From NCBI GenBank assembly GCA_027488395.1, contig JAIYBT010000024.1, forward strand, positions 1 through 64,000: a stretch of DNA of 64,000 bases, in the 5' to 3' direction. Shown piece by piece: positions 12,957 through 17,093 of this stretch. This DNA comes from Methylophilaceae bacterium (lineage in GTDB: Bacteria > Pseudomonadota > Gammaproteobacteria > Burkholderiales > Methylophilaceae). Both the position numbers and the translations under genes were made by a program. Positions within the stretch are counted from its first letter, which is position 1; each line of letters starts with the position of its first letter. The notes beneath the pieces were generated by a model. That model did no database searches. It saw only the letters and a program-made list of their open reading frames with translations, and was not told the DNA's origin.

Positions 12957-12961
12957 CAAAA

Positions 12962-12990
12962 CAAAAAACCCGACACTCGGTCGGGTTTTT
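12962..12990 (-). terminator. Terminator of pqqA copy 1
   Basis: AAACCCGAC-ACTCG-GTCGGGTTT forms a strong hairpin. On the minus strand it is followed by TTTTTG, and it has T-runs on both sides, so it can act in both directions. Confidence 0.85.
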
Positions 12991-13012
12991 GTCATTTTAG
13001 CCTGAGCTAAAA

Positions 13013-13084
13013 TTATTTGTTCATGACGTACATAGTGACTTCAAAGCCAAAACGCATTTCTGTAGCAGCTGGTTTAGTCCACAT
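13013..13084 (-). CDS. pqqA: PQQ precursor peptide PqqA, copy 1
   Basis: A 23-residue peptide starts [19 protein letters not shown] and ends VMNK. It carries the PqqA hallmark E-V-T-M-Y, in which the Glu15 and Tyr19 side chains are cross-linked by the radical-SAM enzyme PqqE (with PqqD) and become the PQQ skeleton. The ATG is preceded by AGGAGATTATT, an excellent ribosome-binding site. A terminator follows 23 bp beyond the stop. pqqBCDE are not in the window. PQQ is the cofactor of methanol and sugar dehydrogenases. The gene is shorter than the usual ORF cut-off, so it is easily missed. Confidence 0.95.
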   Translation of the reverse strand: [23 protein letters not shown]

Positions 13085-13253
13085 AATAATCTCCTGATTT
13101 TAATGTTTAAGTATCGGTACAACATCTTCACAGTATGCGCCGAGGGCTAACACTTGTAGAGCGCACATTCACGCGAAAACCACTCATGATTTTCACCAGC
13201 GCAGGGTAATCAATCGCGTGGCGCATTTGGCATACCAAATGGTTTACACAAAG

Positions 13254-13559
13254 CTATGCGACCATAGGTGTTAGCGGCTTCACATCTGCTTTGAAATGCG
13301 TGCGGGCTTGCCATAAATCATAGGCCGTTTGCTCTGCCAGCCAAACATCCGCGCGACCACCGTTTTCTAACCCTAACCATTTTTCGAGGCGAAGTGCCAT
13401 TTCAGGTGAAATTGCTGCCCGACCATTTAACACTTTAGAAAGCGTTGGACGGGCAACGCCCAATTGTTCAGCGGCATCGGTCACAGACAGGCCAAGCGCT
13501 GGCAAGATGTCATCACGTAGTGTTTCACCTGGGTGCGGTGGATTGTGCATTCTGCTCAT
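13254..13559 (-). CDS. higA: Antitoxin HigA, XRE-family HTH
   Basis: A 101-residue antitoxin from the ATG at 13559, preceded by AAAGGACAACG; the frame is open further upstream but without a better start. It begins MSRMHNPPHPGETLRDDILPA, the classical HigA start, followed by a helix-turn-helix (LSVTDAAEQLGVARPTLSKVL...G), PEMALRLEKWLGLENG and the C-terminal WLAEQTAYDLWQA. It neutralises HigB and represses the operon. It is the second gene after higB with a 10-bp gap, the normal HigBA order. It lies between pqqA cassettes 1 and 2. Confidence 0.93.
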   Translation of the reverse strand: MSRMHNPPHPGETLRDDILPALGLSVTDAAEQLGVARPTLSKVLNGRAAISPEMALRLEKWLGLENGGRADVWLAEQTAYDLWQARTHFKADVKPLTPMVA

Positions 13560-13569
13560 CGTTGTCCTT

Positions 13570-13848
13570 TCAATGGTAATCCTGATAATCGACCAAAATA
13601 GCGTCTTCACCTTCAAACATAAATGTCATGCGCCAGTTGCCGTTGACCATGATTGAATAATGCACTGCCAGCTCACCTTCCAAGGAATGTAACCGCCAAC
13701 CTGGCACATTCATATCACCCGCATCCTTGGCATTATCCAATCTGGATAATTGCCGCGCCAGCCTTGATGTATGATGCGGCTGTATGCCTGCTTTGCTGCC
13801 AGTTTCAAAAAACTGTTGCAGCCCTTTGTGTTTGAATGATTTGATCAT
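13570..13848 (-). CDS. higB: Toxin HigB, RelE-superfamily mRNA interferase
   Basis: A 92-residue toxin with typical HigB sequence: MIKSFKHKGLQQFFETGSKAG at the N-terminus, LARQLSRLDNA, the MNVPGWRLHSLEGE segment, and the C-terminal NGNWRMTFMFEGEDAILVDYQDYH that carries the basic and His residues of the ribosome-dependent nuclease. It is expected to cleave translated mRNA when HigA is lost. The downstream antitoxin gene is intact, so the module looks functional. Confidence 0.93.
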   Translation of the reverse strand: MIKSFKHKGLQQFFETGSKAGIQPHHTSRLARQLSRLDNAKDAGDMNVPGWRLHSLEGELAVHYSIMVNGNWRMTFMFEGEDAILVDYQDYH

Positions 13849-15793: not shown

Positions 15794-15883
15794 CGGTTGG
15801 TCCGGCTTAAATGGGGTAATACACGTTGGCTCTGGTTAAACATCAAGTGATCAATACGCTTTTGAATGACAGAGGCGGGGTTT

Positions 15884-16750
15884 ATGCGCCTTAAATCGAT
15901 ACGTATCCTGCGCTACTTGTGCATCGTGTGCGTGCTTTGCAGCCTCAGTAGCTGCAGCTTTATTAAAACGATATATCAAAATGCACCCGAAATAGTGGCT
16001 TGGTGGTTAGATGATTACTTTGATTTTACCGCCAATCAACAAGCCATTTTAAAACCTGCTTTAACACGGGTGCATCAATGGCATCGCAGTCAGCAATTAG
16101 CAGGCGATATTGCAACCTTGACCACGATCCAGCTGGCGTTGAGCGAAGACCGCGTGAGTGCTGCCGAGGTTTGTGCGCATATAGACACCATCAAATCACG
16201 CCTCAATCACTTACAAGCGGCTTTTACCCCTGTGATCAGCGAACTCGCGCCATTGATCAGCGACAAACAATTGGCCTATTTAAAACAAAAGCTCAATAAG
16301 CGCGCAGAAAAATGGAAATCTGAATGGTGGCAAGAAACGCCAACCGAACAAATCGAAGCCAGATTGGATAAAACGGTCGACTTTGCGGAGAAGGTGTATG
16401 GTCATTTGAGTGCTGGACAACGTGAACTGATTAAACAAAAACTCACGGCCAACCCAACTAAGCCTTCGATTATTTACACTGAGATTCTTAGGCGTAATCA
16501 AGATATTTTCCAGATCATCACAGCGTTGCGTAGCAACGAACTCACTCCATCCAAAAAACAAGTCATGATTGAAGCTGGGTTTGCGCGCTTACAAGCGAGT
16601 CCAAATTTGGAATATCAAACCCACGCTGATCAAATCACTCAGCGCACCTGCGAATTGGTCTCGGAACTCCACGCCAGCACCAGCGCAATACAAAAAAAAC
16701 ATGCCACCACGTGGATTGCTGATCTATCGAATCAATTGTTATCGCTTTAA
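15884..16750 (+). CDS. DUF6279-type lipoprotein of unknown function
   Basis: A 288-residue protein from the ATG at 15884, chosen because GAGGCGGGGTTT precedes it; an in-frame ATG at 15866 has no such site. The signal MRLKSIRILRYLCIVCVLCSLSSC ends in a lipobox. The mature start FIKTIYQNAPEIVAWWLDDYFDF is, as I recall, typical of DUF6279 lipoproteins. The rest is helical, with charged segments around KLNKRAEKWKSEWW and LRRNQDIFQIITALRSNEL. No catalytic motif is visible. It is convergent with pqqA copy 3, whose bidirectional terminator may serve both. Confidence 0.75.
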   Translation: MRLKSIRILRYLCIVCVLCSLSSCSFIKTIYQNAPEIVAWWLDDYFDFTANQQAILKPALTRVHQWHRSQQLAGDIATLTTIQLALSEDRVSAAEVCAHIDTIKSRLNHLQAAFTPVISELAPLISDKQLAYLKQKLNKRAEKWKSEWWQETPTEQIEARLDKTVDFAEKVYGHLSAGQRELIKQKLTANPTKPSIIYTEILRRNQDIFQIITALRSNELTPSKKQVMIEAGFARLQASPNLEYQTHADQITQRTCELVSELHASTSAIQKKHATTWIADLSNQLLSL

Positions 16751-16853
16751 TTCGATGTGCAATGACATACCTCAATCTCCCTCGCATGTCGTGCCAAAAC
16801 AAACAGACAATCAACTACAGGAACCACAGCAGCAACAGCAGCAACCACAAAAC

Positions 16854-16882
16854 AAAAAACCCGACACTGGGTCGGGTTTTTG
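16854..16882 (-). terminator. Terminator of pqqA copy 3
   Basis: Same AAACCCGAC / GTCGGGTTT hairpin with T-runs on both sides. It lies between convergent pqqA copy 3 and the DUF6279 gene. Confidence 0.85.
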
Positions 16883-16903
16883 TCATGTTAGCCTGAGCTA
16901 AAA

Positions 16904-16975
16904 TTATTTGTTCATCACGTACATAGTTACTTCAAAGCCAAAACGCATTTCTGTAGCAGCTGGTTTAGTCCACAT
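16904..16975 (-). CDS. pqqA: PQQ precursor peptide PqqA, copy 3
   Basis: Same 23-residue peptide as copies 1 and 2, with conserved Glu15 and Tyr19 and the AGGAGATTATT ribosome-binding site. Upstream sequence is conserved with the other copies for another ~115 bp, so each copy probably carries its own promoter, although I could not place -35/-10 boxes with confidence. Confidence 0.95.
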   Translation of the reverse strand: [23 protein letters not shown]

Positions 16976-17093
16976 AATAATCTCCTGATTTGAATGTTTA
17001 AGTATCGGTACAACGTGTGCACAGTATGCGCCGAGGGCTAACACTTGTAGAGCGCACATTCACGCGAAAACCACTCATGATTTTCACCAGTTG

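Follow-up and report, generated by a model that had tools for sequence, protein, structure and literature searches.

A dispersed family of pqqA units in Methylophilus carries a common promoter box, also present at pqqB, and shows concerted evolution

The stretch of DNA that we analysed computationally, 64,000 nucleotides of contig JAIYBT010000024.1 from a Methylophilaceae bacterium (the window), contains three copies of pqqA, the gene for the peptide precursor of pyrroloquinoline quinone (PQQ), which is the cofactor of methanol dehydrogenases. The copies lie in three direct repeats (12954-13210, 14079-14335, and 16845-17101), within each of which a 243-bp core on the minus strand runs from a promoter box through the 23-codon gene to a strong intrinsic terminator. 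The ribosome-binding site AGGAG can be read from the sequence at each copy, and the terminator stem is 11 bp at all three. The peptide of copy 1 scored 40.4 bits against TIGR02107, for which the curated cut-off is 20, and copies 1, 2, and 3 encode one identical peptide of 23 residues. The repeats, the matches to PF08042 and TIGR02107, the ribosome-binding sites, and the terminators confirmed an earlier sequence-only reading of this DNA, which had described three self-contained pqqA units encoding the same peptide. That reading had put the differences between copies at eight or nine bases, which is correct for the comparisons with copy 3 (8 core mismatches with copy 1 and 9 with copy 2) but not for copies 1 and 2, which differ at 16 bases. 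It had also called the differences silent in the peptide, and this was borne out within the 72-bp gene, where there are 2 (copies 1 and 3), 1 (copies 2 and 3), and 3 (copies 1 and 2) mismatches, every one of them silent. Because the repeats are 92-97% identical across approximately 250 bp, a chance origin is excluded.

The genome to which the window belongs comprises 2,449,389 bases in 27 contigs with an estimated completeness of 91.7%; the genus is Methylophilus rather than Methylovorus, and the first 8,000 bases of G001:C4, from one of the relatives compared, are identical to Methylophilus aquaticus VKM B-3159. The genome-wide count that the sequence-only reading had proposed gave ten pqqA loci, all above the PF08042 cut-off and all encoding one identical peptide, which contains GFEVTMY; the Glu and Tyr cross-linked by PqqE presumably sit in its E-V-T-M-Y stretch. 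The leader type of the window occurs at five of these loci, namely the three window copies, a copy at 167 kb of contig C5 (full), and one at 116.8 kb of contig C18 (partial); two further loci form a pair at C13, and the remaining three are alike only in gene and box. A single pqqE above cut-off was found (C5:124046-125089), with pqqB and pqqC adjoining; the single-copy count of the enzyme genes rests on the genome-wide search for pqqE. Relatives also carry several copies. The 22 genomes of the genus set gave 133 pqqA matches, 3 to 10 per genome, of which 132 were extracted (G021:C142, at a contig end, was left out) and 129 had enough upstream DNA; 100 of the 132 peptides were letter-identical to that of the window. 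At the level of the family, at least one copy was present in 185 of 187 genomes, with a maximum of 12, and all but 14 of those 185 had several. One divergent pqqA, assigned to G001:C4:12357-12413 by its low score, has an altered C-terminus and is possibly a decaying copy.

Of the 129 genus promoters, 93 contain the 7-mer ATCATGA ahead of pqqA. The full element is a 17-bp pseudo-palindrome, CTCATGA-AAA-TCATGAG and variants of it, located mostly 105-127 nt before the start codon. A 17-position matrix trained without the genome under study found the box in all ten of its pqqA promoters at −150 to −100, above the 99th percentile of shuffled sequences. When each class of genomic location was left out of training in turn, the box was recovered by the same measures in 104 of 129 promoters (I, 21/21; II, 12/12; III, 13/13; IV, 18/31; V, 5/5; VI, 15/15; VII, 3/3; and 17 of the 29 promoters unlabelled by locus); the leaders of loci II and IV resemble each other, as do those of V and VI, and these related types were kept in training, with the matrix seed coming from the whole set. 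A strict form of the pattern gave 63 matches in the 22 genomes versus 2 for the reversed control, and 36 of the 63 are same-strand matches 60-200 bp ahead of pqqA; one more (G019:C56) is upstream of pqqA on the other strand, and another (G021:C305) belongs to a cassette truncated by the end of its contig. All four exact-pattern matches in the genome under study are pqqA promoters (reversed control, 0), four of its ten one-mismatch matches are further pqqA promoters, and the only matrix matches of at least 8 bits in the whole window are the three pqqA boxes. Outside the genus, 22 of 30 pqqA promoters from 15 genomes and 13 genera scored at least 10 bits, the 30 being those of 79 pqqA matches that were retrieved as loci; the second-best window, used as control, reached 10 bits in 4 of the 30 loci, three of these being the promoter's own score, as the windows also tile the promoter. 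The genus-trained matrix is circular for the spacing and window scans within the genus, and the held-out evidence consists of the leave-out tests and the other-genera test. A scan of named genomes gave at least 120 loci; in the 120 listed, 117 pqqA sites are genuine and 4 matches are due to chance. Among the 80 titles listed, nearly all were Methylotenera, Methylopumilus, Methylovorus, Methylobacillus, Methylophilus, other Methylophilaceae, or unresolved proteobacterial bins, and the matches listed included one bin named Sulfuritalea and one named Burkholderiales; this taxonomic narrowness is partly built in, because the scan needed a pqqA start of the MWTxP type.

The spacing of the box to the promoter proper is also restricted. 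Among the 122 promoters with a box score of at least 10, 95 have their best −10-like hexamer at a distance of 61, 62, or 64 nt from the box start, and −35 matches (TTGACA) at the right spacing were no better than in control DNA. For the window leaders the script chose TACTGT at 64, and CATACT at 62 is equally likely by eye. General promoter knowledge would place the box centre near −65, the position of a class I activator. An RNA leader or riboswitch was considered and rejected, no Rfam family coming near its gathering score in 12500-17600 and the folding of the transcript being no better than that of shuffles (z −0.97). A separate arrangement was seen in a streamlined genome, where two same-strand pqqA genes lie approximately 200 bp apart (G022:C1:846735-846989) and the second of them lacks a box (score −5.0), so that a single promoter may serve both.

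The box is not confined to pqqA. Ten of the 63 strict-pattern matches lie upstream of pqqB in relatives, as read from the sequence, with one of these ten pqqB genes and that of the genome under study confirmed by a model. The other 15 matches fall outside pqqA and pqqB, and of the ten that were inspected three (in G009, G012, and G020) precede a gene for a small secreted protein, three are inside a coding stretch that we take to be a mau cluster, and four are elsewhere. In the first three (L158, L171, and L173) the same dyad stands upstream of a gene for a small secreted, YHS-like protein, which in L158 and L173 is followed by what is presumably an ArsR-type regulator gene; the dyad there is possibly an extra regulon member or a chance occurrence.

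Promoters with different leader types agreed at only about 24-32% of positions beyond the box, which is near background (83 anchored promoters and 1,113 pairs from eight chosen pairings of locus classes; the anchor used 8 of the 17 box bases, so that the value within the box is partly forced). Since the surrounding bases are near background between leader types, we concluded that constraint, rather than recent copying from a common source, has preserved the box.

The unit common to unlinked loci spans approximately box to terminator and shows concerted evolution. At the unlinked loci II and IV, paralogous units were 95-97% identical across 264-272 bp in G007, G017, and G001, with homology ending at −128 to −131 and at +133 to +146; in four same-locus comparisons the homology carried on into flanking DNA at 79-93%, on both sides in three of them and only downstream in the fourth. 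On a tree of 27 units from these two loci the locus labels required 9 changes, the shuffled mean being 9.1-9.2; the tree is weakly resolved, with 6 of its 24 inner branches well supported, and those branches alone force at least 4 changes. Similarity ran from about −115 to −126 down to +121 to +131 in the window pairs, the C5 copy, the C13 pair, and a pair in G004, and copy 2 and the C5 copy were alike out to −144, slightly past the box. The leader of each window copy has a closest counterpart in the same genome at 94-97% identity, and none of the leaders compared from other genomes exceeds 77% identity with it. Homogenization is episodic and incomplete, because only 21 of 127 leaders resembled a paralogue more closely than they did their best orthologue at the same locus, as judged with locus labels remade with eight hand corrections. 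A tandem duplication suspected in G015 was discarded, the underlying comparison ("100% of 636") having matched overlapping stretches of the same DNA.

Many of the copies occupy recurrent places. By crude automatic labels, 97 of the 132 genus copies lie in recurrent gene neighbourhoods and 35 are unassigned; in the genome under study 6 of the ten copies lie in such neighbourhoods. Locus I, beside sulfatase and Kdo-kinase-like genes, is present in 21 of 22 genomes, and other places include IV (a convergent pair around a TauE gene), III (after an NhaA-type antiporter), and V (after an RsmB-like gene); the window array is a sixth (Table 1). The alpha/beta-hydrolase gene adjoining copy 3 was mapped in 15 genomes, with pqqA directly next to it in 6 (the window, G001, G002, G003, G004, and G021), further along in 2 (G015 and G016), and absent from the visible stretch in 7. 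Because pqqA directly follows the hydrolase gene in six genomes, copy 3 is the one at the shared place, and copies 1 and 2 appear to be extras at the level of the lineage. The tRNA-Met at the other border is found in the window, G003, G004, G007, G015, and G016, and none was found in stretches L054 (G004) and L213 (G017); the gene content between tRNA-Met and hydrolase differs in most of the 15 mapped genomes. The order in the window is three retron-type genes, copy 1, a HigBA pair, copy 2, a protein with a glucose/sorbosone dehydrogenase (GSDH) domain, a DUF6279 protein, and copy 3. The statement that the units stand between unrelated genes holds only in part: the GSDH-domain protein matches the glucose/sorbosone dehydrogenase family PF07995, at a score far below the NCBIfam cut-off for its PQQ-dependent members. 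The direct repeats around variable genes had raised the suspicion of pqqA-driven island formation, which was weakened by the conserved border tRNA-Met, a sufficient classical explanation.

Table 1. Features of the pqqA array and its borders in the window
Feature	Position	Strand	Basis or remark
pqqA cassette copy 1 (box to terminator)	12957..13199	-	repeat and sequence comparison
17-bp pseudo-palindromic promoter box, copy 1, CTGGTGAAAATCATGAG	13183..13199	-	motif and matrix searches
putative -10 hexamer CATACT, copy 1	13132..13137	-	picked by eye; script favoured TACTGT two bases further on
pqqA copy 1, 23 codons and stop	13013..13084	-	PF08042, TIGR02107
intrinsic terminator, copy 1	12964..12990	-	predicted from sequence
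pqqA cassette copy 2	14082..14324	-	repeat and sequence comparison
promoter box, copy 2	14308..14324	-	motif and matrix searches
putative -10 hexamer CATACT, copy 2	14257..14262	-	picked by eye; script favoured TACTGT two bases further on
pqqA copy 2, 23 codons and stop	14138..14209	-	PF08042
intrinsic terminator, copy 2	14089..14115	-	predicted from sequence
pqqA cassette copy 3, adjoining alpha/beta-hydrolase gene; position common to five relatives	16848..17090	-	
promoter box, copy 3	17074..17090	-	motif and matrix searches
putative -10 hexamer CATACT, copy 3	17023..17028	-	picked by eye; script favoured TACTGT two bases further on
pqqA copy 3, 23 codons and stop	16904..16975	-	PF08042
intrinsic terminator, copy 3	16855..16881	-	predicted from sequence
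alpha/beta hydrolase gene, conserved border of variable region	17094..17858	-	
tRNA-Met, conserved other border of variable region	9986..10062	+	
cargo between copies 1 and 2	13254..13848	-	HigA antitoxin 13254-13616, HigB-like toxin 13570-13848
cargo between copies 2 and 3	14327..16750	+	GSDH-domain protein 14327-15793, DUF6279 protein 15866-16750

We think it probable that the dispersed pqqA family is co-regulated with the pqqB-containing operon through the common box. Each unit would be one small transcription unit with a 17-bp activator-type box near −65, a −10 element without a −35 element, a ribosome-binding site, the 23-codon gene for the PQQ precursor, and a terminator. One predicted dimeric regulator would switch on the single enzyme set and approximately ten peptide templates together, because the box also stands at the pqqB-containing operon. 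Each PQQ made costs the cell one PqqA peptide, and if substrate and enzymes are co-induced at unequal dose, ten templates and one enzyme operon sharing a box are what one would expect. A dosage role, which the sequence-only reading had also proposed, is kept here as the most plausible reading. The family would be an old one with many members at recurrent places, in which recombination may at times homogenize members across the DNA they have in common, from about box to terminator, and in which local copies may be gained and lost in the variable region beside tRNA-Met. According to one report, PqqA supply is rate-determining in Methylovorus MP688, which has five copies, and pqqA has been reported to be nonessential in M. 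extorquens AM1, the orphan copies not having been examined there (PMC11317620). A broader hypothesis, to which we would give an even chance, is that of a family-wide "PQQ box" (CTMATGA-N3-TCATKAG, near −65) bound by one Methylophilaceae activator whose regulon consists mainly of dispersed pqqA and pqqBCDE, with the copy number of the box-to-terminator units, which gene conversion keeps alike, serving as an evolvable gain that sets the peptide-to-enzyme ratio.

Several results weigh against co-regulation through the box. The box at pqqB in the genome under study is weaker, having two mismatches to the pattern, and the DNA upstream of pqqB was inspected in 11 of the 22 genus genomes. The weakest pqqA boxes of this genome, at C13:5022 and C2:45120, scored 7.5 and 11.7 bits (threshold 6.5); 25 of the 129 left-out promoters fell below the box threshold, and 8 of the 30 promoters from other genera were under 10 bits. 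The arms of the box show no covariation (Fisher P 0.15 on 77 sites), and for this reason we do not claim compensatory symmetry. There was no box match at the five scanned loci of this genome with PQQ-dehydrogenase matches, at one of which a contig end truncates the upstream DNA. A regulator gene beside pqqA was looked for, and none of the ten proteins scanned from pqqA neighbourhoods and, once, the window flank, which together cover part of the neighbours, is a transcription factor. Copy number correlated with the number of PQQ-dehydrogenase matches (stretches, not genes) with rho 0.49 in 55 genomes of at least 98% completeness and at most 30 contigs, but with rho 0.18 (P 0.24) in the 44 genomes left when two streamlined genera were removed; the proposal that copy number follows PQQ demand therefore found no independent support and was rejected. 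In Methylovorus sp. MP688 the pqqA copies reportedly respond differently with one dominant, to go by the title of the study by Ge et al. Another methylotroph with five pqqA copies reportedly expresses two of them far above the rest (PMC9851590). Such unequal expression in the two organisms speaks against equal, uniformly co-regulated copies.

It also lends itself to the reading that the copies are condition-specific, their leaders carrying different extra control and the common box being only a basal element. Different leader types cannot be aligned outside the box, a differential response of pqqA copies has been published, and in strain RH AL1 three pqqA genes reportedly fell by different amounts, albeit in the same direction (PMC10848612). 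This is possible, though on the unlikely side, for the box is common to pqqB; differential control is unlikely among the window copies and the C5 copy because their leaders are nearly the same, each being 91-97% identical to its closest copy. The extra copies might, alternatively, be neutral leftovers of local duplication in a plastic tRNA-Met region, cheap to keep, with copies 1 and 2 hitch-hiking and of no dosage value. Their position between tRNA-Met and hydrolase, where content is so variable, the want of a robust correlation of copy number with PQQ-dehydrogenase matches, and the one or two dominant copies reported for other methylotrophs all fit this. Neutrality agrees poorly with the same peptide in all ten copies and in 100 of the 132 genus sequences, with the retention of box and terminator in all three window copies, and with the presence of pqqA in nearly every family genome, mostly in several copies; we regard it as rather unlikely.

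The units had been called mobile-like, and it could be argued that the unit of 245 bp brings pqqA to new sites as a small non-autonomous mobile element, as near-identical, sharply bounded units stand at unlinked places (the window and C5:167342-167592), the neighbours of the C5 copy have no counterpart in the compared loci, and 35 of the 132 genus copies have no recurrent place. However, the units end approximately where the promoter box and the terminator do, which is what homology restricted to functional DNA would give, and 97 of the 132 copies lie in recurrent neighbourhoods. No transposase or integrase was found among the eight neighbouring proteins scanned, although a miniature inverted-repeat transposable element would need none nearby, and no inverted repeat of at least 40 bases occurs in 11000-19000. 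We consider a mobile element improbable and have not retained the description. That the copies are an artefact of a draft assembly, which has 27 contigs and is 91.7% complete, is very hard to credit, since the copies differ in sequence and in flanks and the single-contig relatives G003 and G004 carry two type-A pqqA each in the matching region. Co-regulation of pqqA and pqqB through a common box, if correct, would make the regulator directly findable and would explain how single genes dispersed over the genome could behave as a unit. It would also provide a clear example of gene dosage in which the peptide substrate is consumed and recombination keeps the copies similar, as well as a possible lever for PQQ production.

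Partly similar arrangements are known from other methylotrophs, among them Methylorubrum extorquens AM1 and strain RH AL1, both of which we take to be Alphaproteobacteria. These have several pqqA genes (orphan copies in AM1) with reportedly lanthanide-responsive expression (PMC11317620; PMC10848612); they differ from the present case in having fewer pqqA copies and in belonging to other bacterial groups. Methylovorus sp. MP688 has multiple pqqA (five) and a reportedly limiting PqqA supply, and its pqqA2 promoter has been used for overexpression; a differential response with one dominant copy is reported there, whereas we propose a common control site. Multicopy pqqA in Methylophilaceae, at 3-12 per genome, is already published (PMC4109929), and our genome resembles those with ten pqqA versus one pqqE above cut-off; the passages of that paper available to us give copy numbers and do not mention a promoter box, a box-to-terminator unit, or concerted evolution. 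The literature that we searched, mostly without subscription journals, contained no pqqA box, no box at pqqB, and no concerted evolution of pqqA units, and we found in it no regulator of PQQ synthesis in Methylophilaceae. As in rRNA operons, for which two papers describe concerted evolution (PMC8022953; PMC6053082), paralogues within a genome are more alike than orthologues; the homogenized unit here is instead a promoter-peptide-terminator block of approximately 245-270 bp.

Two further observations concern the variable region. Between tRNA-Met and copy 1, three adjacent genes on the minus strand (10182-12553) match PADLOC models of a type III-A retron: a reverse transcriptase (RT_III-A, E 1.2e-143), a small winged-helix protein (WH_III-A, 2e-18), and PRTase_III-A (2.4e-64). 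Upstream of the PRTase gene, a GC-rich stretch at approximately 12668-12750 that looks hairpin-like by eye could be the retron non-coding RNA; a search with Rfam matched no family there at E 0.5 or better. At L058 (G002:C8 9267-11798), a gene of 716 amino acids stands between two same-strand pqqA copies, and the same place is taken by an EAL-domain gene in G004 and G001, so the cargo between paired copies differs by species.

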